A DNA stretch of 64,000 bases, taken from contig JAFKMU010000038.1 of assembly GCA_017305195.1 (NCBI GenBank), positions 1 to 64,000 on the forward strand. The letters are read 5' to 3'. The DNA comes from Verrucomicrobiota bacterium (GTDB lineage: Bacteria; Verrucomicrobiota; Verrucomicrobiia; Chthoniobacterales; Terrimicrobiaceae). Below, one piece after another: positions 19,933 to 43,998 of this stretch (positions are counted from its first letter, which is position 1; every line of letters begins with the position of its first letter). The position numbers were made by a program, and so were the translations under genes. Under the pieces are notes generated by a model that was not told the origin of the DNA, made no database searches, and saw only the letters and a program-made list of their open reading frames with translations.

Positions 19933-20172
19933 TCAGGACAGGCCTGATGTGATCTCAGGCGATCCGGCCAAGTGCGGATATGTCGTCTGCTGGCCGATGG
20001 TGCGGTGTCCCGTCCCACCATGTTGGATTGCCCGATGAGGAGATAAATCCGGCATTTGCTTTTCTCTCCCGAATCGAACGGGGGCCGGGCTGGGTTGCGG
20101 CGTGCCGCCAGACTGGGCCTGGAGCGCGGCCACGCTCCCCGCGATCAACAGGATAACGAGGAGCCTTTTCAT
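19933..20172 (-). CDS. Small exported protein, 79 residues, unknown function
   Basis: The ATG at 20172 overlaps the stop of the upstream glycosidase as ATGA, so translation is coupled. The product starts MKRLLVILLIAGSVAALQAQ, a clear signal peptide ending at AQ. The mature part is only about 59 residues: Pro/Ser/Thr-rich at first, then a His/Gly/Thr-rich tail (HRAIQHGGTGHRT, TTYPHLAGSP). No cysteine lipobox or known domain is seen. It could be a small periplasmic partner of the glycosidase or of an export system. I do not recognise the family. Confidence 0.55.
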   Translation of the reverse strand: MKRLLVILLIAGSVAALQAQSGGTPQPSPAPVRFGREKQMPDLSPHRAIQHGGTGHRTIGQQTTYPHLAGSPEITSGLS

Positions 20173-22355
20173 GGGATTGCCGTCCCGGCACCGCAGACGA
20201 TCGAAATCCGGTTGTTCTCGCCCAGCATGTCGTAGGGGATGACAGACTCCTCCGGCGAAAGCCTGCGTCCATTCAGCGCGATGCAGGCGCGCCCGGGTTT
20301 GCCGGAGATCGCGATGTCGACGGACCTGCCGCGCAATTTCCATCCCGAGACCTCCACGGGGAAAGCAAACGGTCCCGGTCGGATGGAAAGCCCGTCCAGT
20401 CCCGCCTCAAGACCAAGCACCGTGCGGAAGAAGAGTCCATACCACGCCTTGGCCGCAAAGGCCTGCTTGGTGCCGGGATTGTCCGGGAGCTCGCTCTCCG
20501 TCTCATAGGTCAGCCCCTCGGGGATGGTGTGGCTTTCCCAAAACCAGGCCACGTTGCGGGCCCAGGCCTTCAGCTCGGCGGATCGCCCGGCCAGAGCCAT
20601 GACATTGCGGAAGAAGGGCTCCACCACGGGATAGTACGCGCCGCATTGATTCCCGTCGCGCATCCAGGCGGCATCCCAGCCGGGGTACATGCCGAGGCCA
20701 TGAGGGCGGACGAAATTGCGGCTCATAAAGGCCGCGATGCGCTTCTCATGTCCGCCCAGCAGATCGCGGGCAAATGGAGTGGTCCAGAGGATCGCATAGA
20801 CGGGGTAGTGCTGGCGCGGCGTGAGATCAACCGCGGAGATGGAGTCGTAGAAATATCCCTTCTCCCCGTCAAAGAAGTGCCGGATGAAGCCCTCGCGTGC
20901 GGCCTGCGCCCGGGCGGTGTAGTCCTCCGAGAGCGCACTGTAGCGTTCTTCGCCGTCTGCCGCCAGATGCGCGGTGAGGCGACTCATGGCGGCGAGCGCC
21001 TGATAGTAGATGCTGTTATTAAAGCTGCTGATGTCCTGCCCATCCTGGCCCATGAGGCCGGGGAAATCGGGATAAAGCGAGGTGCCGCGAACGAGCCCCG
21101 TCTCAGCCACCACATCGCGCCCGCATTTTTCCAGTATCCAGATGGCCAGTGGCAAAGCCTCCTCAAGGAGCGCGCGATCGCCCGTGTGGCAGTAATAGCT
21201 GTAGAGCGTGGTGATGAAGAGGCACTGGGCCGGAAACGCCATCACCATCTGCGGGACCAGGCGGGTATTGAACTGATGCGGAATGCCCAGCACGGGGTCC
21301 GCCGTTTTCACCGCAAACCGCAGGGCATTGCGCACGAAATCCGCGTCGCCCGCGAAGAGATGCGCCTCGGGATAGACCAGATCGTCCCACGACCAGACCC
21401 AGTAACCATGAGCCGCCGCGCGCATCCCGCCGGGCAGGTCGGCCACCTTGAGCGAATCGAGCACGGCGGGGATATTCTCCAGGCAGGATCGCAGGGAGGG
21501 CGGCTGCACGGCGATGCGCGGTGCAGTGCGCAGCCGTTCGTGGTACGAGCGGACGAGGGCATCGCAGTCGGCGCAGGCGCTTTGCCGGAGCTCCCGCATG
21601 CGGGCCGCCAGCATCTCCTCGCCGGGGCTGAAACAGACCGCGAATGCCGCTTCGCAGCCGGAGAAATCGCTGCGCAGGTAATGCTTGAACCCCTCGTGAA
21701 CGCCGCCCATGGACTCCAGGGTCAGGCCTTGCGTGGCGAGCAGGCCGACATGCGTCGCAGCCTCGGCGACATCGGTGTTCTCAAAAGTGGGATTCTGCAC
21801 CGGGTTTTTCTTCCGATCCTCGATCTGGGCCAGAAGCTGGCTCTCGGGAATCCGGTCCAGCGCCGCCGCCGTGACGCCCAACCCGTCGGGACGCTCCGCC
21901 CACGGAGTCCAGGTCCGATAGCCGGGTGTCGTATTGACAAATCCATGTAGAGCCACCTTCAGGGCCAGATGCCGGTCCCGGGGGTTGGCGAGGATGCGCA
22001 CACGCTGGACGAGGGCATCATTGAGCAGGAACATCTGAAAGCCGTAGCGCACGCCCTGAAACGAGCCCTCCGTCTCGAAGCCGAAGGGATAAAGCCGCGT
22101 CTTTTGAAATCCCGGGTAGCGCCCCTTGCCATCGACCTCCAGCACGAGGCGAAACAGCTTGGGCCAGGAGGAATGGGCGAACCCGGAGCGAAAGAGCGAG
22201 GCTCCGCCGAGGGACTGCTGACCGTAGTAGATGAGGTTGATCAGGCCGCCGTGGCTGGCGACTGTCATGCCGGTGCGGCCACCGGAAAAATGCACGTGCT
22301 CCAGGGGGAAGCCCTTCGGGGCGCTGGGGGGACTTTCTCGAAAATCAATTTTCAT
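20169..22355 (-). CDS. Six-hairpin (alpha/alpha)6-barrel glycosidase-like protein
   Basis: A 728-residue protein starting MKIDFRESPPSAPKG, with no signal peptide. The N-terminal beta-sandwich (residues 1-240) is followed by a helical toroid: YWVWSWDDLVYPEAHLFAGD, LYSYYCHTGDRALLEEALPL, SFNNSIYYQALAAMSRLTAH and YPGWDAAWMRDGNQCGAYYP, with acidic residues in the positions seen in GH63/GH133/GH78-type enzymes. The tail (GLEAGLDGLSIRPGPFAF, GENNRISIVC) is the small beta domain typical of the clan. The exact family and substrate are open. The longer frame from 22604 is an artefact; ATG 22355 overlaps the regulator stop as ATGA, a translationally coupled regulator-enzyme pair. Confidence 0.7.
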   Translation of the reverse strand: MKIDFRESPPSAPKGFPLEHVHFSGGRTGMTVASHGGLINLIYYGQQSLGGASLFRSGFAHSSWPKLFRLVLEVDGKGRYPGFQKTRLYPFGFETEGSFQGVRYGFQMFLLNDALVQRVRILANPRDRHLALKVALHGFVNTTPGYRTWTPWAERPDGLGVTAAALDRIPESQLLAQIEDRKKNPVQNPTFENTDVAEAATHVGLLATQGLTLESMGGVHEGFKHYLRSDFSGCEAAFAVCFSPGEEMLAARMRELRQSACADCDALVRSYHERLRTAPRIAVQPPSLRSCLENIPAVLDSLKVADLPGGMRAAAHGYWVWSWDDLVYPEAHLFAGDADFVRNALRFAVKTADPVLGIPHQFNTRLVPQMVMAFPAQCLFITTLYSYYCHTGDRALLEEALPLAIWILEKCGRDVVAETGLVRGTSLYPDFPGLMGQDGQDISSFNNSIYYQALAAMSRLTAHLAADGEERYSALSEDYTARAQAAREGFIRHFFDGEKGYFYDSISAVDLTPRQHYPVYAILWTTPFARDLLGGHEKRIAAFMSRNFVRPHGLGMYPGWDAAWMRDGNQCGAYYPVVEPFFRNVMALAGRSAELKAWARNVAWFWESHTIPEGLTYETESELPDNPGTKQAFAAKAWYGLFFRTVLGLEAGLDGLSIRPGPFAFPVEVSGWKLRGRSVDIAISGKPGRACIALNGRRLSPEESVIPYDMLGENNRISIVCGAGTAIP

Positions 22356-23476
22356 TTGGGCGGGGATTTCGGCGGCGGAATGAGTTCGTACCCGAGCAGG
22401 ATCTCGGGGCATTTCTCTCCGGCGTGAAGGCGGGTGAGCTGATCCACAAAGGCATCGACACACTGGTGGCTGGAGTTTGCCACCATCGCCGCCGCGATCG
22501 GGCAGAGAAAGGGCAGCTCGGCGTTTTTGTGGAAGACGACCTTGAGCTGATCCGGCACGCGGACGCCCGCCGTCGTGATGCCCAGCATGACGCCCTTGGC
22601 GCAATTATCGGGAAAGGCGATCAGGCCATCGGGGCGCCCGGGCCCGGCCCAGAGTTCGCGAAACTGATTGTACCCAAACTCATCGTGCGGCTCGGGGTAG
22701 CGGATGGAGTTTCTCACCCAGGCGTCGCGCACCTGGATCTTGAGCCGACGGGCTGCCCGGCGAAAGGCATGCACGTGCTCCGCGTGACTCGGAGGGACGG
22801 CGGTGATCAGGCCGGCCGACTTGCAGCCCTGCTCCTGCAGGCGGGTAAGCGCGATCTCAAAAAAGCTGTTGATGTCGAAATCGACGCGATGCTTGAGCAC
22901 ACGCCCCAGGCCGGTAACCGGTACGGGCAGGGCGTTGAGCCACGCCGCATTGTATTGACCGCTGTTCAGCGCGATCAGCGCCTGTATCTCCCCTCGCCCG
23001 GCCGCCTTGACCAGAGCAGGAATGGGTGTCGTCGTTTTCTCCCCCTGGCGGGTTTCAAACCATACGGTGGTGCGGATATTCTCCTGGAGGAAACGGGTCT
23101 CCAGCAGGAGAAACAGCTCACGGATAAAAAGAAGCTCGCTCGCGTCCTGCCAGAGCTGGCTGGGAGCAAGGATGCCGACGCGGGAAAGCCTCGCCTCGCG
23201 CTCCTTCACAAAGGTGCCCATGCGATGGCGGCGATCCAGCAGCCCTTCCTTCGTCAACGCCGTGAGCGCCGCATGCACCGCCGGGACATACGTGCCCCAT
23301 TGGGCGGCGAGTTGCTGCGTGGTGGGCAGCCGGGTTCCCGGGGGCATTTCTCCGCTCAGGATCTTTTCCCGCACGCGGTCGGCGAGTTCGTCCACGGTGG
23401 ACCGCTTTTTCGAGAGCGAAATATCCAGGCTTCCCGGGATCGGATCGGGAGAGGTATGGGCGGCGGTTTTTTTCAC
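22352..23476 (-). CDS. GntR-type regulator with LacI-like ligand domain (copy 2 of a near-duplicate pair)
   Basis: A 374-residue regulator with the same architecture and most of the same sequence as the one at 15803. The winged helix (SKKRSTVDELADRVREKILS, GTRLPTTQQLAAQWGTYVPA, EGLLDRRHRMGTFVKERE) is nearly identical. The effector domain has diverged more (GCKSAGLITAVPPSHAEHV), which suggests the same DNA site but a different inducer. The start is GTG 23476. It lies 94 bases after the GH43 gene and is coupled by ATGA to the six-hairpin glycosidase. The shared 43-bp box at 25171 lies ahead of this gene group. Confidence 0.85.
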   Translation of the reverse strand: MKKTAAHTSPDPIPGSLDISLSKKRSTVDELADRVREKILSGEMPPGTRLPTTQQLAAQWGTYVPAVHAALTALTKEGLLDRRHRMGTFVKEREARLSRVGILAPSQLWQDASELLFIRELFLLLETRFLQENIRTTVWFETRQGEKTTTPIPALVKAAGRGEIQALIALNSGQYNAAWLNALPVPVTGLGRVLKHRVDFDINSFFEIALTRLQEQGCKSAGLITAVPPSHAEHVHAFRRAARRLKIQVRDAWVRNSIRYPEPHDEFGYNQFRELWAGPGRPDGLIAFPDNCAKGVMLGITTAGVRVPDQLKVVFHKNAELPFLCPIAAAMVANSSHQCVDAFVDQLTRLHAGEKCPEILLGYELIPPPKSPPK

Positions 23477-25252: not shown

Positions 25253-27646
25253 ATGAAGTCTTTCTGCCACATCTACGCCCAGTGGGATCAGGTGAACGAC
25301 CGGATCTCCGAGGAGGCCAGCCATCTCCTGGGCCTCGGCCTCACGTGCGACACGACCTTTGGGTTCAGCCGGGCCGGGCAAAACCGCACCATCCTGAAGC
25401 GTATCACGGAGGCGGGAGGACTGTGCGCACCGAATATCTATCCCGCCAATTACGCGCCGGAGTGCCGCGATGCCAACTGGTGGAAATACCCGCAGTCGCA
25501 GTGCGAAGAGTTTCTCGGCAAAGCCGCGGAGCGCTTCGCGGCGCTGGACCTCGGTCCGCTCCAGGCGGTGAATACCTACACGCCGGGCAACACCTTCGTC
25601 GCAGCCTGCCGCCGGGTCGGCATCGGCTACATCCTGGGATTCTGCGCCCCCACGGTGATCGAGGACGGCGGCTGGGAAATCGCTCACTATGGTTCGCCGC
25701 TTTCACCGTACTTCGCCTCCGACGAGGATTTCCGCAAACCCGAGGCAGGAACGCGTGCCGACGCGGTGCTGATGTCCAGCATGGAGCTGCGCAATCCCAT
25801 GGTCTGCCTGAACCACTGGAGCGAGGGCCCCTGGTGCCCGCTCAATGCACTGGCCGCAGATCGCTGGCTGGAGCCTTCCCGCGATCCCCTGCCCTTTCAG
25901 CAAATCGCCGAGGATTGGCTGCACCAGGCCGAGCTCAGCGGGCGGCCCCTCTTCTTTCACATCAACCTCCAGTATTTCTTCTCGGGACGATGCTATGAGC
26001 ATAACCGCCGGGCGCTGGAGTGGCTGGCCGCGCAACGCGACAAGGGCCGCCTTGAGATCGGCGGCCTGCAGGCATGGGCCGCGCGGCTGCGGGCCCAGGG
26101 AGGATTTGAGCGGCAGACGAGCTACTGGCGCGGCGAGATGATGGGCTTTCATGTCGGCCACCGGCCCGGATGCTTCCCGGATGTGATCGTCGACGAACAC
26201 CTCGGCGCGCAGACGATCTGGCAACATCCCGAGCCGCTGCCGCAGCGGCGTTACGACTACTCTTCGGAATGGAGCTACCCGGCTTTCCAGCCCGACGGCA
26301 GCGCACCCGCCTCGATCACCCGCCCGCAGGATGAGGTGAAGATCGAGAGCGCAGAATCAGGCAATACCTCCCGCATCCTCACGATTACGCAGCAGGGCGG
26401 CGGATCAGCGCCGGTGATGATCTGGGAGGCATTCTCCGGGTGGCAGCCCCCTTTTCAAGCAGAGATCGCCAGCGGCGAGGGAGAGACGCGCATCGTCCCC
26501 CATCCCTCCGGAACGGGAGGCGCGTTGCTGGTGGAGACACCCGGTCCCAAGCTCGTGATCCGCGTCGCGGGCCGGCCGGGCGGAGAAGCCCCCACCTCCC
26601 GCCGATGGGGAAATCTCGTGGTCGGCCAGACGTTTCACCGCGGCGGGATTCCCTACACGGTCCTCGCCGCCCAAACCCCGGAGCCCTTCGCGGTGGAGGC
26701 CCGCATCCGGCGATCCTCCCCGGAACCTGTGGAATGGGAACGTCTCTGCGGACTCGACCACCGCAGGGAGATCGTAGCGGGCGACCGGATCACCCTGAGC
26801 TTTGACGGGACCCGCCTCGCGTGCTGGCATCGGTTCTGGGGATTGCAGGCGGGCGAGATCGATCTCATCGGCGTGGAGGCCATCGAGGCCGGGCTGCGCC
26901 ATGCCACTGCCGCCGACGCCGCTCGAATCGACTCCGCCATTCTCCCGGAGGGGCCGGGATTCCAGCTCTTCGGCAACATCCGGAACCCGGATCGCTGGGA
27001 TCGCAGGCTCGCGCGCTCCGCCGGGGAAAAGGAAATTCACGCCATCGGCCGGTGGTTCGCCTCAAAGCGCCCTGGGGCAGGCAAAACCGTGATCGAGGTT
27101 CACCCGGGGGCATTTCTCCCGCGCGGCTCGATCACCAAGGTGCTCGGGCATGAGTTTGACTCGATCACGTGCGCGGAGGACTATTCCTTCGAGGAAATCT
27201 GCGTGGACTATCCCCAGGGCTGGGACTGGGGAGTGAGCGCGTGGGTGCAGTGGCGTCACCTGCGGGTGAGCCTCTCCGGGTTGAAGCGCGGAGCGGGCGC
27301 CTATGTGCTCCATCTGCATGCCTTTGATCCCGAGCGCCGGGACATCTCGCAGCGCGTGCATTTCTTCAATCCCCTCGCATCCTCGCCCGCCCCCCGGGTC
27401 ACGGGCTTCCCGGTGCATCAGCCGTCGGAAATCTGCGCGGTGGCCGACTGGGTGCTCCCGGCGGGCCTGGAGGGGCGCTGGAGCGACGAGGCGCTGTGCT
27501 CCATCGAGATTCCCGAGATGTGTCTGGACTGGCCCGCCATAGGCGTACGCATCATGCCCGTGGAAAAGACCAAGCTCTACGACTGGGTGGCGGAGCGCGG
27601 CGCGCCCGGTCTCTTTAGCCATCTCTGGGTGACGTGCCTGCCGTGA
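25253..27646 (+). CDS. Large protein of unknown family, possibly a polysaccharide deacetylase-like or GH57/38-like barrel
   Basis: A 797-residue protein with no signal peptide. I do not recognise the family. The N-terminal 300 residues read like a TIM- or NodB-type barrel that follows a person-like search motif: LGLGLTCDTTFGFSRAGQNR, GGLCAPNIYPANYAPE, GPLQAVNTYTPGNTFVAACR, GIGYILGFCAPT, FFHINLQYFFSGRCYEHNRR. The second half is beta-rich. Asp, His and Trp residues are frequent at strand ends, as in carbohydrate enzymes. It is followed immediately by a sugar symporter with a 4-base overlap, so a role in handling an imported or secreted glycan is likely (inference). Confidence 0.5.
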   Translation: MKSFCHIYAQWDQVNDRISEEASHLLGLGLTCDTTFGFSRAGQNRTILKRITEAGGLCAPNIYPANYAPECRDANWWKYPQSQCEEFLGKAAERFAALDLGPLQAVNTYTPGNTFVAACRRVGIGYILGFCAPTVIEDGGWEIAHYGSPLSPYFASDEDFRKPEAGTRADAVLMSSMELRNPMVCLNHWSEGPWCPLNALAADRWLEPSRDPLPFQQIAEDWLHQAELSGRPLFFHINLQYFFSGRCYEHNRRALEWLAAQRDKGRLEIGGLQAWAARLRAQGGFERQTSYWRGEMMGFHVGHRPGCFPDVIVDEHLGAQTIWQHPEPLPQRRYDYSSEWSYPAFQPDGSAPASITRPQDEVKIESAESGNTSRILTITQQGGGSAPVMIWEAFSGWQPPFQAEIASGEGETRIVPHPSGTGGALLVETPGPKLVIRVAGRPGGEAPTSRRWGNLVVGQTFHRGGIPYTVLAAQTPEPFAVEARIRRSSPEPVEWERLCGLDHRREIVAGDRITLSFDGTRLACWHRFWGLQAGEIDLIGVEAIEAGLRHATAADAARIDSAILPEGPGFQLFGNIRNPDRWDRRLARSAGEKEIHAIGRWFASKRPGAGKTVIEVHPGAFLPRGSITKVLGHEFDSITCAEDYSFEEICVDYPQGWDWGVSAWVQWRHLRVSLSGLKRGAGAYVLHLHAFDPERRDISQRVHFFNPLASSPAPRVTGFPVHQPSEICAVADWVLPAGLEGRWSDEALCSIEIPEMCLDWPAIGVRIMPVEKTKLYDWVAERGAPGLFSHLWVTCLP

Positions 27647-32177: not shown

Positions 32178-35100
32178 TCACCAGTGCATCTGCAAATACG
32201 GGTCGTCGCTTCTCTTGTATTCGCCGATGTATGGGCCCGCATCCTCTTCCAGCGGGCGAATCACAATCGGCCCTCGCAGCCAGGTCTTCCAGTCCTTGCT
32301 GTCCGCATTGCGGTTCCACGCCCGGATGGCCAGCACGTTTTCTCCTGCGGCCAGCAGCCCTCCCGGGATGGGATAGACTCGATGAACTGAGTAAGCCTGG
32401 TCGGGACTGGTGTTTTTGTCGGAGGTTTCGCCGATCTTCACGCCATTGAGCCAGACCTCATCGTAGTCATCCACAGTTCCCAGATCCACGGCCAGGCCGG
32501 AGTCCACAAGGTCCGGAGGCATCTTGAAAGAAGCCCGGACCAGGGCCTTGCCATAGGGAGTCCTCTTGCTCGTCGGGTCAAAGATCGCCCACTGGGCATC
32601 GTTGTACCCCGGCCGGGTCCACGCCGTGTCTGCGGTGTCCCCAGCTTCGCGGATTTTGAACACTCCTTCGTCAGCAACCGGTATTTTTTTCGCCTGCCGC
32701 CCGAGAGTCTGGAAGAGGGAATTCACGGGATTGGAAAGATCTGCGCCCAGGTTGCCAAGGATCTGAGCAAGAGCCCGGTATTGATGTCTCATGGTCAGAC
32801 GCAGGTAGGGCTGTTTCTCGACATCGAGCTTGCGGGGATCGAACCCCAGCAGCACCCAGCGCCCCTTTCCGTCGGGGATTTCCGCGATATTGCCCCCGCC
32901 ATCAAAGATGATCTGCTCCAGCGCCTGGCGATAGTGAAAATCATTCTGGCCCAGCCCTGCCAGCAGTCTGCCCCCCGGCAGTTGTTTCCAAGGAATCAGG
33001 CTTACACGCTCGATCGTCGTCTTCAACCCCGGGAAGTATGCCCGATAGGTTCCCTCCGCCTGCGGAAGCACAACAGCCGTGCCTCCCGCTCGTATCCAGG
33101 CGGCCAGAGCAGACGGATCAGCAGGCAGGGTGCCAACCAATGAGATCGCGCCGGGAGCGCCCTTATTCGCAGGATCGGACGGCGATCCGCCCAGATCGCG
33201 GATCATTTTCTCGACCGAGACGTCGCCGATCGCATGCAAGCTGGCTCTCCTGGTGACGACAGGCTCAGCCAGAAGGTAATCCAGAATGTTCGCCGCCACT
33301 CTCGTCGCGGCAGGGTCAATACCAGCGCCATCCGTGAGGGACAACTGACTGAAGAGCACCGGATGGCCTTTCCAGACGGTTTCCAGCAAGGGGGTTTCAC
33401 GAAGATCGAATCCACTCTGGAGATGGGGCGTAAAATTTCCCCGGGTCGGCGTCTCGATGGTGACGGACGCCACCGCGCCGCGATATCCGGTATGGAAATT
33501 ATACCCGTCTTTCAGCGGCGCCGCCCCTGGTGGCAGCAGAGTCGCCGCCACCCGCCAATCCGCAAACTCTTTATCGGTCATGCCCTGGGAGAGGGCCGAG
33601 GGCATGGGCAGGGTAAAGGCCTGCCGCGTCCGGGTCGGAAAGGCGCGCAGGCCCAGTTTCTCCAGGACCTTGTCGGTTTGCTCCAGGATCAGGATGGGAG
33701 TTCCCGGCGGCAGGGCAGCGAGCCAGGCTGAACCACCCGCTCGCTCAAGGGCGTGACGGCCGATGACCAGCAAATCGCAGGGAGGAATCTTGTCGAGGCT
33801 GGCGACAGGGAGAGTCGATACCCCCATCCGCTCAAACATGGAGCGCGATTCCCCAGCCGGATCGAAGAGCGCCACTTTTGCGCTGGCGATTCGTTGCGGG
33901 AGCACGAAGCGAGAGTAAACCTGGAAGGCAAATCGATCGCGTGCGACCACGTCGTTACCGGTCTTGCGCCGCACCGCCATCTCGATCTCGCCATCGAGGC
34001 GAGGTTCCGTCGTCACGGGCGCATCGAACTCGAAGGGTTTCAAGGCGATTTCCCCCGGTGGCAGATTCATCTCCATCTCTCCGGAGCCGATTTCGCGGCC
34101 TCCCGCCATCGCCTTCCATGTCACAACAAACTCCGCGGGGACAAAACCGTCCCAGACGAGAGCCAGTTGCTTGCGCACCTTTTCACCGCTCCAGAAGACG
34201 TGATCCTTCGCCGTGAAAGCGGGGCTGGCTCCGGCGATGTAGGCCAGAAGCGGCGAGTTATTTTCCGCCAGCACGTCGCCCAAGGGCGAGAGAATGGCAG
34301 GCTTCCTGCCGACAGGCTGCTCCGGATAGGAGATCATGGTCTCGAAAGGCCAGTAACCCTGCCAGGTCCAGCGATCCTGTTTCGCCCCGGTGGTTTTAAG
34401 ATTGGCGGAGGGATCTGCCACGACGGTGCCGTCCCCCTTCTTCAGCTCATCGATCTTTATATAATTGGTCGCAGGGCCGAAGGGCTCGAGCCCCATGGAG
34501 ACACCGTAAGTGCGCCAGGCGCGATAGATCGCCCGGTTCCTCGCAGCCCAGATCCGCTGCACGTTGTCGATGGATTCCTCGACGGCTCTCTTTCCCGAGT
34601 CATGCGGGGGGTTGCGGATGTCTTTGGCAAAATTCTTTGTCTTTGGGTCATATGTTCTCGCGATATATTCCAGATAGGATGCGGGCTCGTGAAAATAGGA
34701 GGAATCTCCGGTTTCCGCGGCGACGTACTCGGTCACCCACGGCTCCAGGTCGCCTCCGGCGGGAGCGTGATTCACAAAGCTGCCGGGATAGGGAAGACCA
34801 TGTTCCGTCGAGCCCATGGGCATGACTCCCTTTTCCGCCCATTGTGCGGGCCATTCCTCCCACTCCTGGGTGGGAGTCCAGTTGAAGTAGTCAAAAGTTC
34901 CCCATCCGTCGCCCTGGCCAGCATCCAGGTGAGACAGGAAGGGCCGGGTAGAGTCTGCTTGCTTGATCGCCCGCACGAATCGCCGGCTGGCCTCCAGACT
35001 CTTGAGATCCTTCCTCCTCACCTCGTCGCCCGGGATGTAGGCGTCCAGCAGGCCGGGCTGGTCTAGGGGCTTCTGTCCCCAGATATCTGGGTGCATGCCG

Positions 35101-37163
35101 AACGGGTTGCCCGCGATGGAGGGCGAATACCCGAATCCCGACCACGCAATGACGCTGGGGTGGTTAAATGCCTGCTGGATCTGGTTTTTCTCAACGTAAC
35201 GAACCAGCCTGTCCATTTCCGAATCCGGAATCGTCTCGTCCCCCCACTGGCCTCCGGAGACCAGATTGTAGGGTGTGTAGGATATGAGCAACATCCCCAT
35301 CTCGTCAGCCGTGGCGTAGAGATCCTCCGCCGACATCCGGCTGGTCCCTTCATCGCTGTTTCCCGCCGCGACGCGCAAGACACAGTTGAACCCCATGTCC
35401 TTGAAAAAGCTGAACATCCTGCGGAGCGCGTGCTTGTCGACATTTCCGAGGAGCGGCGTCAGCCGCGGCCTGAGCCGGAGGGGATGCCCGTTGAGGAAGA
35501 TATCCTTCCCCTCGACCCAGATTTCACGAAAGCCAAAGGTAACCGGCAGGGACTCATCGACGATGGAGCCATCGGCTCCCTTGACCTGAAGGACGCCGCG
35601 ATACAGCCACGGGTCGTCGGGATTCCAGAGGCGCGGGTCCTCCCATGGGATTTTCCAGGAAAGCCAGCCATCTTCCTCCTGCACGTTTTCGAGCTTTTTC
35701 TCCAGCACGATCCCGCCGGACGGATCAGTCACGGTAAACTTGTAGTCCAGCCCTGCGCCGGACGGCTGAGCCGGGACTCGGACCTCCAATGTCTTGTGGC
35801 GGACCGATGGCAAAAGGCGGATCTGCTCCGCCAGCTGCCGCTCCGGCTCAACGGTGAGATAGATATCGTGGAATCCCTTGCTCCAGTTGCCGCCAAAGGT
35901 GACGGGCTCGCGCTTGCGCACGAAGTCCTCGCGGTAGGCGAAGCGCGGATCGGCCGGTTTCACACCCAGTGCATAAATGGCAAGCTGGCCCTTTTCGCCC
36001 GGCTTGGCCACATCAGTAAGGTCGATGCGGCCTCCCAGCTGGTTCTCCAGCACCCCCACCGGCTTCCCGTTCCAATAAACCCGGATCGCGTATCCCCACA
36101 TCCCTCCCACGTCGAGGAATACTCTTTGCGCCGGAGGAGTTCCCGTCGCAGGAGCCAGAGAGCTCTTCCCAAATCCGAACAAGCGCGACAGCCAGTTTCC
36201 GGTTGATTCCTTCGGCGAGGGCTGCGACACGCTCCCCGCTTGACCAAGGACCGGCACCTGCACCTCGCGTACATACCAGATCGGGTCTGCCGTCCGGTAG
36301 ATATCCCTGCCACTCCAGGTTACCTTATCCAGCCCGTAGATCGAATACATCTGCGGATTGAAGTACCCCGGCACTTTGAAAAACGCCCAATCCCCGGTAC
36401 TGGGAGCTCCGTCGGCTGGCTGTATGGCCCACAGGCCGTTGAGGCACAGGCGGAGCCGGGTCGCGGACGAGTCTGTCTGCGCGCCCGTGTTGGTCCAGTC
36501 GGGGGTCAGGGTGACGCCATTGGCGCTGACTGGCAGAAGCCTGATTTCCTCGACCGGAATCTTTTCCGGAGCCTGTTGTAGTGCCTCTTCCACGGTCTGA
36601 CTCGTCCGGACGAGCTTGATCGAGCGAAACTCAGCCTGAGCCGGAGACGAGGCTCCCAGCCCGAAACGCAGCCCGAAAGAGACCGTGCCCGGAGGCAAGG
36701 TGAAACTCGACTCGAACGTCTTCCACTTTTCCACGGCCGGTTTCGCCACGTTGGGCCATTTTTTGCTAGCCCTGGCGATGGTCTGGAGTTGCGTAAAGCC
36801 CAGCCATTTCCGCGCAGCCCCCACGTAACCGGCGCCGACATAGATATTGTACTCCTCGCCAGGGCCAAAGCCTCTGGCTTCCCAGGTCAAACGGTAGGAA
36901 TCCCCGGCGCTTCCCGGAAACTCCTGCGTCCACCACGCATGGACCTCGCCCGGAGAGCGCAGATAGAGGAATCTCCTCCCATCCGCCTCTCCCACGCCCC
37001 AGTCCAGGGAGCTGCTTTTTGGCAGATTCACCTGCCACTCCGCCGGCATGTTTTCCCTGAGGTCTGTAAAATCGGGATTCCGGACAATATTCTCCGCTTC
37101 CCTGGCAACAGACAGGGTGCATGACGCAATGAGCGCGAGAAGGGGAAGGATGCAGACTTTCAA
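32178..37163 (-). CDS. Giant GH2-like multidomain secreted protein, acid/base residue not in canonical place
   Basis: A 1661-residue exported protein with a signal peptide from TTG 37163 (ILPLLALIASCTLSVARE); no in-frame ATG precedes it. In order: a galactose-binding-like module (about 25-190), a GH2 sugar-binding sandwich (LCLNGLWAIQPADG, VYWNGKPVGVLENQLGG), an immunoglobulin-like domain, and a GH2-like barrel (GKDIFLNGHPLRLRPR to about 900). Two further large regions follow, one Rossmann-like (LLVIGRHALERAGGSAWL), and a C-terminal GBD sandwich (VDDYDEVWLNGVKIGE). The strand that normally reads WS-GNE is VIAWSGFGYSPSIAG, so the usual catalytic Glu is absent; GSTEHGLPYPGS could hold the nucleophile. 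Confidence 0.7.
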   Translation of the reverse strand: MKVCILPLLALIASCTLSVAREAENIVRNPDFTDLRENMPAEWQVNLPKSSSLDWGVGEADGRRFLYLRSPGEVHAWWTQEFPGSAGDSYRLTWEARGFGPGEEYNIYVGAGYVGAARKWLGFTQLQTIARASKKWPNVAKPAVEKWKTFESSFTLPPGTVSFGLRFGLGASSPAQAEFRSIKLVRTSQTVEEALQQAPEKIPVEEIRLLPVSANGVTLTPDWTNTGAQTDSSATRLRLCLNGLWAIQPADGAPSTGDWAFFKVPGYFNPQMYSIYGLDKVTWSGRDIYRTADPIWYVREVQVPVLGQAGSVSQPSPKESTGNWLSRLFGFGKSSLAPATGTPPAQRVFLDVGGMWGYAIRVYWNGKPVGVLENQLGGRIDLTDVAKPGEKGQLAIYALGVKPADPRFAYREDFVRKREPVTFGGNWSKGFHDIYLTVEPERQLAEQIRLLPSVRHKTLEVRVPAQPSGAGLDYKFTVTDPSGGIVLEKKLENVQEEDGWLSWKIPWEDPRLWNPDDPWLYRGVLQVKGADGSIVDESLPVTFGFREIWVEGKDIFLNGHPLRLRPRLTPLLGNVDKHALRRMFSFFKDMGFNCVLRVAAGNSDEGTSRMSAEDLYATADEMGMLLISYTPYNLVSGGQWGDETIPDSEMDRLVRYVEKNQIQQAFNHPSVIAWSGFGYSPSIAGNPFGMHPDIWGQKPLDQPGLLDAYIPGDEVRRKDLKSLEASRRFVRAIKQADSTRPFLSHLDAGQGDGWGTFDYFNWTPTQEWEEWPAQWAEKGVMPMGSTEHGLPYPGSFVNHAPAGGDLEPWVTEYVAAETGDSSYFHEPASYLEYIARTYDPKTKNFAKDIRNPPHDSGKRAVEESIDNVQRIWAARNRAIYRAWRTYGVSMGLEPFGPATNYIKIDELKKGDGTVVADPSANLKTTGAKQDRWTWQGYWPFETMISYPEQPVGRKPAILSPLGDVLAENNSPLLAYIAGASPAFTAKDHVFWSGEKVRKQLALVWDGFVPAEFVVTWKAMAGGREIGSGEMEMNLPPGEIALKPFEFDAPVTTEPRLDGEIEMAVRRKTGNDVVARDRFAFQVYSRFVLPQRIASAKVALFDPAGESRSMFERMGVSTLPVASLDKIPPCDLLVIGRHALERAGGSAWLAALPPGTPILILEQTDKVLEKLGLRAFPTRTRQAFTLPMPSALSQGMTDKEFADWRVAATLLPPGAAPLKDGYNFHTGYRGAVASVTIETPTRGNFTPHLQSGFDLRETPLLETVWKGHPVLFSQLSLTDGAGIDPAATRVAANILDYLLAEPVVTRRASLHAIGDVSVEKMIRDLGGSPSDPANKGAPGAISLVGTLPADPSALAAWIRAGGTAVVLPQAEGTYRAYFPGLKTTIERVSLIPWKQLPGGRLLAGLGQNDFHYRQALEQIIFDGGGNIAEIPDGKGRWVLLGFDPRKLDVEKQPYLRLTMRHQYRALAQILGNLGADLSNPVNSLFQTLGRQAKKIPVADEGVFKIREAGDTADTAWTRPGYNDAQWAIFDPTSKRTPYGKALVRASFKMPPDLVDSGLAVDLGTVDDYDEVWLNGVKIGETSDKNTSPDQAYSVHRVYPIPGGLLAAGENVLAIRAWNRNADSKDWKTWLRGPIVIRPLEEDAGPYIGEYKRSDDPYLQMHW

Positions 37164-37293: not shown

Positions 37294-37842
37294 CTATTTC
37301 ACCTTCTCCATCTGGATATTTCGAAACCAGGCTTCGCCTCCCCCCTTTCCACCGAGCCCCAGCCGAAGGCGCACACGGGAAAAGCCGTCGGGAACGACGA
37401 AATGGCTGTCAAAGACCCGCCATTGATCATTGGTTATTTGTTTGGGTGAAATCGCCTGGGTGTCGGAAATGGTAATCAGCATTTTGTGATCGACCTCCTT
37501 GCCCGTGTCGTCAAGGAAAGCCACGAGGACATAACAGCGGTGATCACTGCCTGGGCTCCGCGCCTCCACGGTGATGGCATAATCAGCGCCGGGCTCGACC
37601 GCGACATCCTGCGACCACCAGCAATGGCTTCCCGGGCCGGCTTCCATCCTGATCATCAGCGCACCCATGTCATCGACGGTTTCAAACCTGCCGTCGACGA
37701 ATTCTTTATTGTCCCTGCCGGGGTAGAACACCCAGCCTGAGTCGCCTTCCTTCAAGGAGCCGTTTTCCAACAGATTTCCCTCTGCCTGCCCGCGTGCAAG
37801 CGAGAGACCAGTCAGAGCCAGAGCCACAAGGATACCTTTCAT
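37294..37842 (-). CDS. Small secreted carbohydrate-binding-like protein (galactose-binding fold)
   Basis: A 182-residue exported protein made of a signal peptide (LVALALTGLSLARGQAEG) and one beta-sandwich. NLLENGSLKEGDSGWVFYPG, HCWWSQDVAVEPGADYAITV and FRNIQMEKVK are the pattern of CBM4/9/16/22-like galactose-binding domains. It resembles the N-terminal module of the adjacent giant GH2-like protein (NIVRNPDFTD, AWWTQEFPGSAGDSYRLTWE). It lies 131 bases ahead of that gene, same strand. Probably a stand-alone glycan binder; ligand unknown. Confidence 0.7.
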   Translation of the reverse strand: MKGILVALALTGLSLARGQAEGNLLENGSLKEGDSGWVFYPGRDNKEFVDGRFETVDDMGALMIRMEAGPGSHCWWSQDVAVEPGADYAITVEARSPGSDHRCYVLVAFLDDTGKEVDHKMLITISDTQAISPKQITNDQWRVFDSHFVVPDGFSRVRLRLGLGGKGGGEAWFRNIQMEKVK

Positions 37843-37902: not shown

Positions 37903-38583
37903 CTAGGGATTGAGTCCTCCGGTCCAGAAAACATTGGTCTGGTCCGTGGGTATCTGCTTCCTGGTCAATGCCTCCACATGACCATCCAGGAAGCCAAAGT
38001 TCTGGGCGTTGCCGTGCAGATAGGTGAAGTAATCCGCATCTGTCCGGGTGTAGGAGAAATAGGCAAACACGAATGCCGTGAGGTCGGTGACAAGAGGCAC
38101 CTTCGACGGCTGCGCGACACGCGCCAGGCGAACCGCCGCCACTCCCTTGGAGCCATCCGTACTCACGGCGCTATTCAGGCCGTACGAGACATAGTATCCC
38201 GAGCCTCCAGCTCTCTGCTCGCTCCGGAACCCCTTTTCCTTCATCAAGGGACAGAGGACGGCATTTTTTGCCAGGAACTGGCCTTCCGGCCTCACATAGT
38301 CTTGCAGGTAGGGCTGCAGCCGCCACGTCCAGTAGGTGCCTCCGCTGGGGCCGGTTCTTGACTGAATGATCTCTCCGCCGTTGTCATTCGCATAGGCCAA
38401 TACAGCCTCGGTTATCCGTTTCATGTTGTTGACACAGACCGCCGTGGATGCCGAGGCTCGCGTATTCCGCAAGCCCGCGAGGACAAGTGACGCGAGGACG
38501 CCAGCAATGGTGATCACGACCAGCAGCTCCATCAAAGTGAAGGCTCGGGTGCCGGCATGAAATCCAGGGTTGGGGATGCGCAT
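37903..38583 (-). CDS. Prepilin-type pseudopilin with H-X9-DG motif
   Basis: A 226-residue pseudopilin. The leader is 13 residues, with cleavage expected in the RAFTLMELLVVITIAGVLAS segment; the residue before Phe is Ala instead of Gly. VCVNNMKRITEAVLAYANDN and a VLCPLM cysteine follow. The C-terminal YLHGNAQNFGFLDGHVEAL has exactly nine residues between His and Asp-Gly, the H-X9-DG signature. It stands between the autotransporter-repeat PEP-CTERM gene and the carbohydrate-binding gene, all leftward. Confidence 0.85.
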   Translation of the reverse strand: MRIPNPGFHAGTRAFTLMELLVVITIAGVLASLVLAGLRNTRASASTAVCVNNMKRITEAVLAYANDNGGEIIQSRTGPSGGTYWTWRLQPYLQDYVRPEGQFLAKNAVLCPLMKEKGFRSEQRAGGSGYYVSYGLNSAVSTDGSKGVAAVRLARVAQPSKVPLVTDLTAFVFAYFSYTRTDADYFTYLHGNAQNFGFLDGHVEALTRKQIPTDQTNVFWTGGLNP

Positions 38584-38622: not shown

Positions 38623-40578
38623 TCAGCAAACCACACGACGGCGGCGAAGAACAAGCACCGTCGTCACGCCGAGAAGCGAGAGAACCAGGGCCGAGGGCTC
38701 GGGGACAGCCGTCACCATGAGATCCACCCCCCCGGCACCGTCGTAGGAAAAGGTCCCCGTCCATCCCGCATTGGCGATGGTCCAGCTGCCGATGCCGGAC
38801 AAGCCCGCTTCCGTTCCAGCAAGGCCGCTGATGATATTGTCATACACTCCCACCGTCGCGCCAAGGTCGAGGAAACTGAACGCCTGGTCGCTGTCGAAAA
38901 CCCATGCGCCCCCGGTGCGGGAGAGGCTGGAATGCGCTCCGGAGGCGCCCAGGACCAGTTGGATCTTCGATGTATCCTGAAGGGTCAGATTGCCGGCCAT
39001 GGTCAATGCTCCCGACGCTGCCGCGCCATCGCCTCCGCGCAGAATCGCCGAACCCGCCACCACCGTGGCGCCATTGACCGTACCGGTGCCGCCGAAGACT
39101 GCGTTGGCAGCCACCGCGACCGCGGAATTGCCAATCGAACCACTGACCAGAAGGGTGCCCGCATTCACCTGGGTGGTGCCGGTATAGGTATTGGCGCCTC
39201 CCAGGACCCAGGCTCCCGTCCCGTTCTTCGCGACGCCGACCACGCCCGCGCCGTTGTTACCGAGCGAAGGATTCATCACGTTGACCCCCGTGTTGCTGGC
39301 GGTCAGGACCAGATTGGCCGCCGAACCAGCAGAGGCAAAAACGATCGATCCGCTGTTCGTGAAGGAAACCGTCCCCGTCCCCGCCGCGTTGATCCCCGTA
39401 TTGCCCTGCATGGTAAACAGCCTGTCGGTGGAGGAGTTTGAGGAGCCGATATACTTGAGCGATCCGCTCAGATCTCCGCGAATGACAAGATTTGCCGCGG
39501 CGTTGGAGGAGGCGCCGATGCTGCTGTTCGTCCCGCCGTTGGCCAGGCTGGCGACTTCCAGCGTGCCACGGACGATCTGCGTGGCTCCGGTATAGCTGTT
39601 ATTGGTCCCCGACAATCTGACGACTCCGGTATCCCCGGCTTGTCCGGCCCGGAGGTCGTTCGTCGTGCCGGTGATCTGGCCGGAGATCTCCAGCACGTTG
39701 CCCGATGCCGCGCCCAGATCCAGGAAGCGGTTGCTCTTATTGACCGTTCCCGAGAGAGTCAGGGTGCTGCCGCCGGACGCAAGGTTTCTGATGCCGCCGT
39801 TGTAGGACATGGTGATGTTGCGGTTTGAACTCTGGCTGGTGCTGCCGTTGAAGATCAGGACGCCGCTGTTCGTGATTGTTCCATTGGCCACGGTGGTCGC
39901 GGCGCCCAACGCGGAGGGGCCGCCGCCGACATTGCTGATGGAGGTAAAATAGAGGTTCCCGGCATTGTCGATCGGAGCGTCGAAATCATTGCCATCATTG
40001 GTCAGGTAAATATTCGGGTTGGCCGTGACGTAGGTGATGGCGATCTTTCCCGAGCCCGTTGCCGTGCCGCTGATCTTGCCATTGATCACCAGGTTGGAGC
40101 TCCCTCCGCCTCCCGCCGCGACATACGCGATATTCCGAGCGACGCTGAAGCTGCCGTAGTTGATCGTCACGTCGCTGCCGATGGTCACGGCAGAAGTTCC
40201 CGCCGCCCGGGACAGCAGGATATCTCCCGCCAGGTTGATCACCTCACTTGCGCCGCTGCCGTTGCCGGTGAGGGTCAGGTTATTGGCCGTCGTCCAGTTG
40301 AAGTTCAAGCCGCTCACCGACGTGGAGGCAGAGGACAAGGCCAGCGTCGCATTCGTCGTGTTGTTAATAAACGAACCCGTGATGCTCCCGCCAGTCCAGT
40401 TGGCCGGATCATTGATATCCGTCCCGCTCCCGCCCGCACCTGATCCCGACCATTGAGCCTGGGCGGCGACGGGAAGAAATGCCAGGCACGCCAGCGCGAG
40501 AAGCACTGATCCTTTGGTTGAGCCGGAGCGAAGTTTCACAGCAAGGGATGCCGTGGAGTGAATTGATCTGAGTTTCAT
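38623..40578 (-). CDS. Autotransporter-associated beta-strand repeat protein with PEP-CTERM tail
   Basis: A 651-residue exported protein. After a long signal peptide (ALACLAFLPVAAQAQ) come Gly/Asn/Thr-rich beta-helix repeats, including LGGANTYTGTTQVNAGTLLV and LSGTNNSYTGATQIVRGTLE, the autotransporter-associated (PATR) repeat. There is no autotransporter barrel. The end is a PEP-CTERM tail (VPEPSALVLSLLGVTTVLV, RRRRVVC). It is expected to be a fibrous surface or matrix protein sorted by an exosortase. ATG 40578 begins the signal peptide; the longer TTG frame is rejected. It is divergent from the GntR-type regulator at 40736, with a 13-bp inverted repeat between them. Confidence 0.85.
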   Translation of the reverse strand: MKLRSIHSTASLAVKLRSGSTKGSVLLALACLAFLPVAAQAQWSGSGAGGSGTDINDPANWTGGSITGSFINNTTNATLALSSASTSVSGLNFNWTTANNLTLTGNGSGASEVINLAGDILLSRAAGTSAVTIGSDVTINYGSFSVARNIAYVAAGGGGSSNLVINGKISGTATGSGKIAITYVTANPNIYLTNDGNDFDAPIDNAGNLYFTSISNVGGGPSALGAATTVANGTITNSGVLIFNGSTSQSSNRNITMSYNGGIRNLASGGSTLTLSGTVNKSNRFLDLGAASGNVLEISGQITGTTNDLRAGQAGDTGVVRLSGTNNSYTGATQIVRGTLEVASLANGGTNSSIGASSNAAANLVIRGDLSGSLKYIGSSNSSTDRLFTMQGNTGINAAGTGTVSFTNSGSIVFASAGSAANLVLTASNTGVNVMNPSLGNNGAGVVGVAKNGTGAWVLGGANTYTGTTQVNAGTLLVSGSIGNSAVAVAANAVFGGTGTVNGATVVAGSAILRGGDGAAASGALTMAGNLTLQDTSKIQLVLGASGAHSSLSRTGGAWVFDSDQAFSFLDLGATVGVYDNIISGLAGTEAGLSGIGSWTIANAGWTGTFSYDGAGGVDLMVTAVPEPSALVLSLLGVTTVLVLRRRRVVC

Positions 40579-40661
40579 GACAGGAGGTGTTCTTGAGGTG
40601 AAATGCTGGTTAAGCGCGAGGGGGGGGTTCAAGTCTCACCGGAAGACTGCCAGACTCACTA

Positions 40662-41967: not shown

Positions 41968-43998
41968 ATGCTTATCAACACATTCCCCGGAGCTGCTCCT
42001 TCCGCTCTACACAAGCTGACTTTTCCCGTTCTCGATCTTCCCGGACAGAACGGCCGCAGACAGAAATATTTCACTGAGATCCGGCGTCGCCACAGGTCAT
42101 ATTTCCGTCCCTCCGGAGAATGGAAATGCCCCACGACCCCGCCCGAGACTCGCGAGTGGCTCTGGCAGGCCTTTGCCTGGCTGGAGGGCGACCCGGCCGA
42201 TCAGGATTTTGCCAGCAGACTCATCACCGCCGCCCCCGAGATCATCAGCGGCCATAGTGGCAGCGGGGATCACGCCTACTGCATCTTCGCCTGCACCCAT
42301 GCGCTGCACCTGCTCGTCCTGCATGGAGAAAAGCTGTCCTGTCCGGCGGGGGCGAGGCTCGCCTCCTGGGCGCGGCGGACGATCATGGACAACCCCGGCG
42401 GAGCCCGGGCTGATCTCCAGTTTCACGGATACAACGACAACATGCCTGCGAAGGCGACGCTCGGGCTTATCCTCGGCGGAGAATACTTTGAAAACCGCCG
42501 CGCCGTGGAACACGGGCTCTGGAATCTCCATCAGCTGCGACTGCTGCTCACCCGGCGCGGGGTGATCTCCGAGCACTGCAGCCCGACCTACTCCCCCCTG
42601 ACGCTGACAAACCTCACTGAGATCGCCCGCTACTCGACCAATGCCGAAGCGCGAAGTCTGGCGGAGGACTGCTGCCACCATATCTGGGCCGAGCTGCTTG
42701 CTCACTATCACGCCCCAACGCGCTCGGTCGCCGGGCCCTATTCGCGAGCCTATGCCGTCGACTCGGCAGGACACATCAGCGCCCTCCACTTCATGCTATG
42801 GCAGGTTTTCGGAGACGATTTCGTGGCCAATCCCCTGGACGAATTGTTTTCGGAAGAGAGCAAGCTCATCCGGCATCATCGCGGGGACAGATTTTTCTTC
42901 GAGGGAGGATTCAGCTTTCTCGCAGCCTGCCAGCACCATCCCCCGGCCCGCCTGCTCGACTGGCTGCGCCTGCGCCGGTTCCCCTTCAACTTTTCCGCAA
43001 CGACAGAACGCGGAGAGGGAGGGGCTAAGGGAGACTTCCATGCCGACAAGATCTCCATCCGCATGCACCAGACCGAGACTTTCGCTCTCGGGACGAGCAA
43101 TGGCGACTGGACGCAACAGGCTGAACGCTGGCAACTCGTCTATCGCCGGACGGAAGATCAGGAAGACCATCTCCCCCGGTTTTCGGATCGCAGGCACCTG
43201 AGCATGCGGTATATCGTCAACGACGATCTGCCTGGCATCACCGCCCCCAGCCCTCGGGGGGAAGCCTCTGGCGAAGTCGACTTCACGCGGGAGATGGGCG
43301 GGTACCATACGCTCCAGCATGGCGCGACCTCGCTCGTTGCAGCGCATCCGATGCCGAGCCTTGCCGGTCGGCCGATTCATCGCATGGGACTGGCCATCCT
43401 CATCCCCGAGCACCTGGATCGCGTCGAGGAAATCACCTTTGAACACGGGCACGTCTGGGTGACGGACGGCCCCTTCCAGATGGCCATCAGGCCTCTCGGC
43501 GTCACGCACTGGGGAAACGCGACACCGGAATTTCGCGAAATCCGCTCGGGAGCCTGGCGGCTGCTTTTTTTCCCGAACTATGAAGGGCCTGAAAGAACCT
43601 TCACCCGGGAGGAACTGGATGGAACGACTAATGGCTTCGTCGCCGTCTGTTCGGGCCTGGATGAAACATCCGATTATGATTCGGAAAAAGGCCGGGAGGC
43701 ATTCCGCCGGGCGGTCATCGAGTCCACACTGCGCGACACGATCTGGGTCAATCTGCGCACCATTTTCTGGGAAGGATTTGGCAATACAATAGAGATGTCG
43801 TACGGGCTGAGCTCCAAGCGCCTCCGCTTTGCGGCGGTCAATGGCATCGAGCCGGAGTCTTCCGTATGGCACGCGGACGGCCTGACCCGGCAGAGCCTGC
43901 CCTTCACATCCCGGTCGTCCCTGAAAAACCCGTATCCCTTTCCCTACGGCCCCGACGCCGATGGATGGGAGGTATTCCCCTCGGGGCAATCTACTTGA
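41968..43998 (+). CDS. Unknown protein, probable (alpha/alpha) toroid plus beta-sandwich (polysaccharide-lyase-like)
   Basis: A 676-residue protein without a signal peptide. I do not recognise a named family. The first 330 residues are helical with lyase/six-hairpin-like marks: DLQFHGYNDNMPAKATLGLI, RRGVISEHCSPTYSPLTLTN, PTRSVAGPYSRAYAVDSAGH. The rest is beta-rich (MGGYHTLQHGATSLVAAHPM, FEHGHVWVTDGPFQMAIRP), the order seen in heparinase II/III- and alginate-lyase-like proteins. The conserved-looking N, H, Y and R residues would suit lyase chemistry (inference). It is followed 55 bases later by a Gfo/Idh/MocA gene, as in uronate pathways. Confidence 0.5.
   Translation: MLINTFPGAAPSALHKLTFPVLDLPGQNGRRQKYFTEIRRRHRSYFRPSGEWKCPTTPPETREWLWQAFAWLEGDPADQDFASRLITAAPEIISGHSGSGDHAYCIFACTHALHLLVLHGEKLSCPAGARLASWARRTIMDNPGGARADLQFHGYNDNMPAKATLGLILGGEYFENRRAVEHGLWNLHQLRLLLTRRGVISEHCSPTYSPLTLTNLTEIARYSTNAEARSLAEDCCHHIWAELLAHYHAPTRSVAGPYSRAYAVDSAGHISALHFMLWQVFGDDFVANPLDELFSEESKLIRHHRGDRFFFEGGFSFLAACQHHPPARLLDWLRLRRFPFNFSATTERGEGGAKGDFHADKISIRMHQTETFALGTSNGDWTQQAERWQLVYRRTEDQEDHLPRFSDRRHLSMRYIVNDDLPGITAPSPRGEASGEVDFTREMGGYHTLQHGATSLVAAHPMPSLAGRPIHRMGLAILIPEHLDRVEEITFEHGHVWVTDGPFQMAIRPLGVTHWGNATPEFREIRSGAWRLLFFPNYEGPERTFTREELDGTTNGFVAVCSGLDETSDYDSEKGREAFRRAVIESTLRDTIWVNLRTIFWEGFGNTIEMSYGLSSKRLRFAAVNGIEPESSVWHADGLTRQSLPFTSRSSLKNPYPFPYGPDADGWEVFPSGQST

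Follow-up and report, generated by a model that had tools for sequence, protein, structure and literature searches.

A GH2-scaffold protein family lacking the canonical acid/base glutamate, with candidate replacements elsewhere in the barrel

The positions of the two catalytic carboxylates are the defining constant of clan GH-A. Within this clan the GH2 enzymes (LacZ, GUS) have an order of jelly roll, Ig-like domain and TIM barrel, and a fold, in common with the protein described here (P0001), and the GH2 nucleophile, a Glu of strand 7, has its equivalent in E787 of P0001. P0001 differs from GH2 in having no loop-4 Asn-Glu acid/base and apparently no strand-2 Arg, in the new invariant residues E767, E812 and R884, in an enlarged loop 7 and in a long extra C-terminal part. 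For comparison with GH2_21 we take 6hpd, a GH2 beta-glucuronidase, as a solved enzyme of that subfamily, and T2KN75 is the ulvan beta-glucuronidase of Formosa agariphila. An acid/base Glu in loop 4, preceded by Asn, is a feature of the GH2 family, with exceptions, according to the 2025 GH2 subfamily paper (PMC12243196). The same paper describes GH2_21, in which this Glu is replaced and E402 of T2KN75 is proposed as the substitute, and variants of GH2_19 that carry TV, NA or NQ in place of NE, e.g. PDB 7XYR (PMC12243196). A family that kept the nucleophile, dropped the acid/base and fixed a Glu elsewhere would provide a direct test of how a catalytic pair is rewired in evolution.

P0001 is encoded in the window, the whole 64,000-nucleotide stretch of a Verrucomicrobiota bacterium that was analysed (contig JAFKMU010000038.1). 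The frame given in the earlier note, 32178-37163, is exact; it is an open frame of 1661 aa on the minus strand, as are all features of P0001 below, with a TTG start and its stop at 32178-32180. Homologues align to the protein across most of its length. This GH2-fold protein is probably secreted, and its N-terminus reads as hydrophobic and lipobox-like, with a putative signal peptide (LKVCILPLLALIASC; 37104-37163) assigned by reading the sequence rather than with a dedicated predictor. The N-terminal module that follows (residues 21-190; 36594-37103) resembles a small CBM_4_9-like protein encoded next door, which is 32% identical to residues 70-188. The GH2 N-terminal jelly roll (about residues 225-450; 35814-36491) was placed from the range of the model that aligned to GH2 structures; Glyco_hydro_2_N was matched at E 0.01 or better by 36 of the 40 family members scanned, P0001 not among them. 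The Ig-like domain (residues 456-548; 35520-35798) scores above the Pfam cut-off (PF00703, E 3.3e-6, residues 466-546). The TIM barrel (about residues 549-900; 34464-35519) was delimited from the predicted model and structural matches, the Pfam TIM-barrel model reaching E 0.18, under its cut-off.

AlphaFold2 modelling of residues 200-1395 from a 68-row alignment gave a mean pLDDT of 81.5 and a pTM of 0.86, and model range 30-773 (full-length 229-972) is the part aligned to GH2 structures. In structural comparisons, the beta-glucuronidase 6d8k matched residues 229-972 with Z 24.5 and rmsd 4.1 over 470 residues, and the LacZ-type 3ob8 matched residues 229-1080 with Z 23.2 and rmsd 5.3 over 546 residues. 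Together Pfam, AlphaFold2 and structural matches place the jelly roll, the Ig-like domain and the TIM barrel of GH2 in P0001 and its family, so the barrel is indeed recognisable, given PF00703 over its cut-off, the TIM-barrel model at E 0.18 and the 6d8k match.

The second half of the protein had been described as large and non-GH2, which holds only in part. A post-barrel beta-sandwich (residues 989-1083; 33915-34199) lies within the span of the LacZ-type structure matches, and the C-terminal jelly roll (BetaGal_ABD2; residues 1489-1651; 32211-32699; Pfam PF13364, E 1.2e-7) resembles domains of GH2 enzymes. When residues 1085-1661 were modelled separately (pLDDT 88.9), the jelly roll at the end of this second half matched 6ldc, a domain of a GH2 enzyme, with Z 15.5 and rmsd 2.4 over 137 residues. 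The description stands for an alpha/beta region of about residues 1085-1485 (32709-33911), a barely tested stretch for which no relative was found, the fold searches of the second half having been filled by the C-terminal jelly roll; a weak DUF4350 match was seen in 4 of the 40 family members scanned. Part of the second half is also common to L041-L043, GH2-like proteins with the canonical Glu (989-1203 in L041, 1227-1364/1372 in L042 and L043). These three are similar to P0001 in the GH2 part too, yet retain the strand-4 N-E motif.

Strand 4 and loop 4 of P0001 (residues 671-698; 35070-35153) contain no acid/base Glu. Residues 672-720 read IAWSGFGYSPSIAGNPFGMHPDIWGQKPLDQPGLLDAYIPGDEVRRKDL, in which strand 4, VIAWSG, runs into a low-confidence loop, and the first Glu past the strand is E714, whose column is not conserved as acidic. 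The observation that the WS-GNE of GH2 is IAWSGFGYSPS here was therefore correct, and we extended it to the family. A profile built from five proteins including P0001 was scanned over genomes; at least 342 of the 583 candidate stretches encoded relatives, and the 80 top-scoring loci were taken forward. The family alignment holds 105 rows, P0001 and 104 of 116 homologues, after ORFs shorter than 900 aa or scoring under 400 bits had been dropped; duplicates (L062, L077, L116, L135 and L142) were removed before this count. At the acid/base position the alignment has Asn in 104 of the 105 proteins, Gly in one and Glu in none. Alignment of the family profile with the GH2 glucuronidase 5c70 is gapless and sets YSLSHN under WSIANE, with Asn for Glu. 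P0001 itself and L133, its nearest relative (46-49% identity over the aligned parts), are the only two of the 105 rows with a 7-residue insertion in loop 4, and because of this insertion it is uncertain which residue of P0001, Y679 or N686, stands in the old Glu position; N686 (35106-35108) is the residue aligned, with uncertain placement, to the family Asn.

As an out-of-sample check, the most divergent members were also realigned. This set comprises 20 of the 22 weakest among the 93 listed phylum-scan matches, two G458 fragments of one gene having been omitted, and it carries a mild ascertainment bias, as the columns in question are part of the profile that detected it. The old site is here N in 15, L in two, S in one and G in one, with one unreadable, so the loop-4 Asn-Glu of GH2 occurs in 0/105 aligned and 0/19 readable divergent members. 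E787, E812 and R884 are present in 20/20 and E767 and Y759 in 19/19 readable members; Q766 and H745 drift as well. Since the old site drifts while E767 stays, E767 is the more strongly constrained of the two.

As a control we took, from the same class, the 30 GH2 loci that match PF02836 best. Asn-Glu is present in strand 4 at 30/30 of these (27 by pattern, three by eye) and P-x-Q-E at 0/30. A profile made from NE-bearing proteins served to choose the control ORF within each locus; the window genome contributes its own GH2 as one locus, and the loci are not independent because several are near-copies from one genus. In the family, the NE pattern hits 2 of the 105 proteins, in each case well away from strand 4. 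In a tree, 37 family rows, thinned from 100 long enough, are split from 16 canonical-type rows by a branch with 100/98 support; this tree omits five overlapping canonical rows and labels the row L037b_out canonical with its motif unchecked. As the canonical rows were mostly picked by NE (19 of 61 ORFs), the tree shows separation, not the frequency of motif loss. Judged from these alignments, the loss of the acid/base Glu is more than chance or a quirk of one gene.

Just four columns between residues 540 and 910 are acidic in at least 99% of the rows: E547, E767, E787 and E812. E547 lies before the barrel in a GFRE motif common to LacZ, and E767, E787 and E812 therefore remain. The Glu of the STEHG motif, proposed earlier as a possible nucleophile, is E787 (34803-34805); it ends predicted barrel strand 7 (residues 783-788), the place of the GH2 nucleophile, and is Glu in 104/105 and 20/20 divergent members. 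Its position and conservation suggest that it would be the catalytic nucleophile. E767 (34863-34865), the proposed relocated acid/base, belongs to a P-x-Q-E motif after strand 6 and is kept in 104/105 and 19/19 readable divergent members; the strict pattern is found in 97/105, and in the remaining eight the motif is slightly altered but still has an acidic residue. In the AlphaFold2 model E767 falls in the first turn of the helix that follows strand 6, at the third helix position. In a TIM barrel the start of the helix after strand 6 and the end of strand 7 lie on the active-site face, and a Glu at such a helix position can also be purely a helix cap. E812 (34728-34730), a second acid/base candidate or a structural residue, is found in 105/105 and 20/20 divergent members and lies in the enlarged loop 7, about twice the length of that of the canonical L004. 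As E812 and E767 are conserved to much the same degree, conservation gives no preference between them. R884 (34512-34514), just before strand 8, is likewise present in 105/105 and 20/20, and H745 and Y759 are each kept in 102/105 of the family alignment. The profile aligns Y759 to the Tyr of an N-R-Y motif in L004, with E767 eight residues further on.

Two other carboxylates were considered. The loop-4 Asp D693 (present in 91/105) is not favoured as the new acid, short of full exclusion, because nothing aligned to its column in the 20 divergent members; by eye, several of these have no loop Asp at all (e.g. L201, L186 and L191) and others have an Asp nearby. A substitute Glu in loop 3 was rejected, as no column in residues 624-666 reaches 85% acidic, the most acidic having D or E in 73/105 and 63/105.

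If E787 is the nucleophile and the old Glu is gone, the acid/base must therefore come from elsewhere or be absent. With moderate confidence we favour an active, secreted glycosidase on the GH2 scaffold, in which E787 is the nucleophile and the acid/base has moved, most likely to E767 and less likely to E812. In this mechanism E787 on strand 7 would serve as it does in GH2, and E767, whose Pro-x-Gln-Glu motif lies where strand 6 ends, would supply the general acid/base; E767 is preferred for its sequence proximity to known active-site positions, and E812 of the enlarged loop 7 would be the less likely source. P0001 would accordingly be an enzyme with a retaining reaction, E767 would reach the scissile oxygen, and the substrate would be a beta-glycoside of a plant or microbial polysaccharide. 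Gene expansion in some genomes and the polysaccharide-related genes near P0001 agree with a working degradative enzyme. Among the three options that the earlier note had raised, a carbohydrate-binding pseudo-enzyme, a new mechanism or a relocated acid/base, the last appears from sequence to fit best, given a canonical site that varies and E767 and E812 that are near or fully invariant. More tentatively, we propose that these proteins form an unnamed family of clan GH-A in which the acid/base left strand 4 in a single move, for the end of strand 6 or for loop 7. It is quite possible that the family then spread widely, through Planctomycetota, Lentisphaerota, Kiritimatiellota, Verrucomicrobiota, Spirochaetota and others, with 12-16 signature matches in some genomes.

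The changes in the site might instead reflect a switch of chemistry, to an inverting hydrolase or another glycan reaction in which E787 is paired with E767 or E812. The strand-2 Arg that supports the nucleophile in most GH2 enzymes is apparently lost in the family, in that it was not seen by eye in a 46-row alignment whose loop is uncertain there; its apparent loss would mean that the whole site has been remodelled, making different chemistry possible. The missing acid/base Glu and the three near-invariant barrel carboxylates also suit such a switch, but E787 occupies the place of the GH2 nucleophile and we know of no inverting enzyme in clan GH-A, which leaves this reading improbable. A pseudo-enzyme that binds carbohydrate, as the earlier note had suggested, would account for the loss of a catalytic residue and for the accessory jelly-roll and CBM-like modules, and one member, L149 (G169), with Gly at the old site and Asp at the nucleophile, may be dead. 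However, nucleophile loss or drift, the mark of a dead enzyme, is confined to that Asp; the nucleophile Glu is kept in the other 104 of 105 and in all 20 divergent members, across many phyla, and would not stay conserved like this in a binding protein. We consider this reading distinctly unlikely.

Plant myrosinases work without a protein acid/base, and the P0001 family could in the same way have none, relying on good leaving groups or on an acid from the substrate or an outside molecule. This is unlikely in our view, as is its corollary that E767 and E812 merely bind sugar or hold loops. An old site that is neutral throughout the 105 aligned and the divergent members fits it well, and so do the GH2_19 members with TV, NA or NQ for NE, for which the available portion of the subfamily paper describes no substitute (PMC12243196); such a mechanism, however, does not need a new Glu after strand 6 that is conserved like the nucleophile. 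Membership of GH2_21, the ulvan beta-glucuronidase type, would mean that the substitute Glu has already been described. The acid/base loss is the same, and Asn is among the GH2_21 replacements listed in that paper (PMC12243196), but 6hpd matched L046 with just E 0.0045, over the stretch from the Ig-like domain to strand 1, where 5uj6 reached 2.7e-13, and 6hpd is absent from the best 60 of 139 and the best 60 of 138 PDB sequences. Furthermore E402 would lie about 56 residues after strand 1, in loop 3, and E767 about 200, assuming that chain and UniProt numbering are close. We regard GH2_21 membership as most unlikely.

The preferred reading, a relocated acid/base, thus has a partial precedent. 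GH2_21 resembles the P0001 family in having its acid/base Glu replaced and another conserved Glu proposed (PMC12243196), so that a case of this kind in GH2 has already been published, apparently at another site. The P0001 family is nevertheless remote from 6hpd, and its substitute Glu would seem to lie in a different loop. In GH2_19 variants NE is replaced, as in the P0001 family; what the available text describes there is patchy loss, with no substitute, in a subfamily that mostly keeps NE (PMC12243196), whereas in the P0001 family none of the members examined retains it, and other Glu residues are newly near-invariant.

The family is apparently large and unstudied. The best 80 loci span Lentisphaerota, Planctomycetota, Kiritimatiellota, Verrucomicrobiota, Spirochaetes, Armatimonadota and others, where placements come mostly from metagenome assemblies and single ones may be wrong. 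The signature of strands 5-8 was found in 28 of 194 sampled genomes of the window's phylum, two of which are expanded, G474 with 16 matches and G516 with 12. Among the closest kin the gene is rare, which weighs against the favoured reading: a full-length match was present in 0/2 same-genus genomes and, within the same taxonomic family, in G005 only (147 genomes). Contig G033:C101 carries two opposite-facing paralogues about 6 kb apart (L037:7235-11632 and L038:951-5192), and a search with L064 at E 1e-20 found no plasmid-borne relatives. All 40 members scanned matched NCBIfam GH2 models at E 0.01 or better, P0001 scoring far under every curated cut-off, and no model specific to the family was seen in NCBIfam or Pfam. 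A search for a solved relative of strands 5-8 gave five matches to E 10, all to unrelated proteins (best 0.77), and a single-sequence search gave none. The literature search returned no recognised description of the family and no known activity for any member, and the family may already have a CAZy number; the soil beta-galactosidases of PMC5342196 were discarded as members, since the part of that paper available describes other domains. In these phyla, the textbook mechanism cannot hold for all the proteins that are likely to carry a beta-galactosidase or GH2 annotation, and the family would point to an abundant pool of probable polysaccharide-degrading enzymes.

Polysaccharide-related genes near P0001 encode a GH71-like protein, a GH43, GDSL esterases, an MFS transporter and GntR/LacI-type regulators. 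The adjacent upstream gene (37294-37842, minus strand; 182 aa) encodes the CBM-like neighbour, whose CBM_4_9 match is below the curated cut-off, and is possibly co-transcribed with the P0001 gene; its product resembles a free-standing copy of the N-terminal module. Across the 80 family loci, many of which have short flanks, the surrounding ORFs cluster poorly; the largest neighbour groups, each named from one scanned member, are Gfo/Idh/MocA oxidoreductases (11/80), DUF1559/prepilin-type proteins (9/80) and sulfatases (7/80). With such poor clustering and short flanks, shared neighbours were set aside as a substrate clue, and no substrate follows from them. Elsewhere in this sugar-related region of the window, three large products had no Pfam match above cut-off (25253-27646, plus strand, 797 aa; 41968-43998, plus strand, 676 aa; 20169-22604, minus strand, 811 aa) and are possible unrecognised carbohydrate-active enzymes. 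A PATR-repeat protein with a sub-threshold PEP-CTERM tail is encoded at 38623-40632 (minus strand), beside a prepilin-type gene at 37903-38583.
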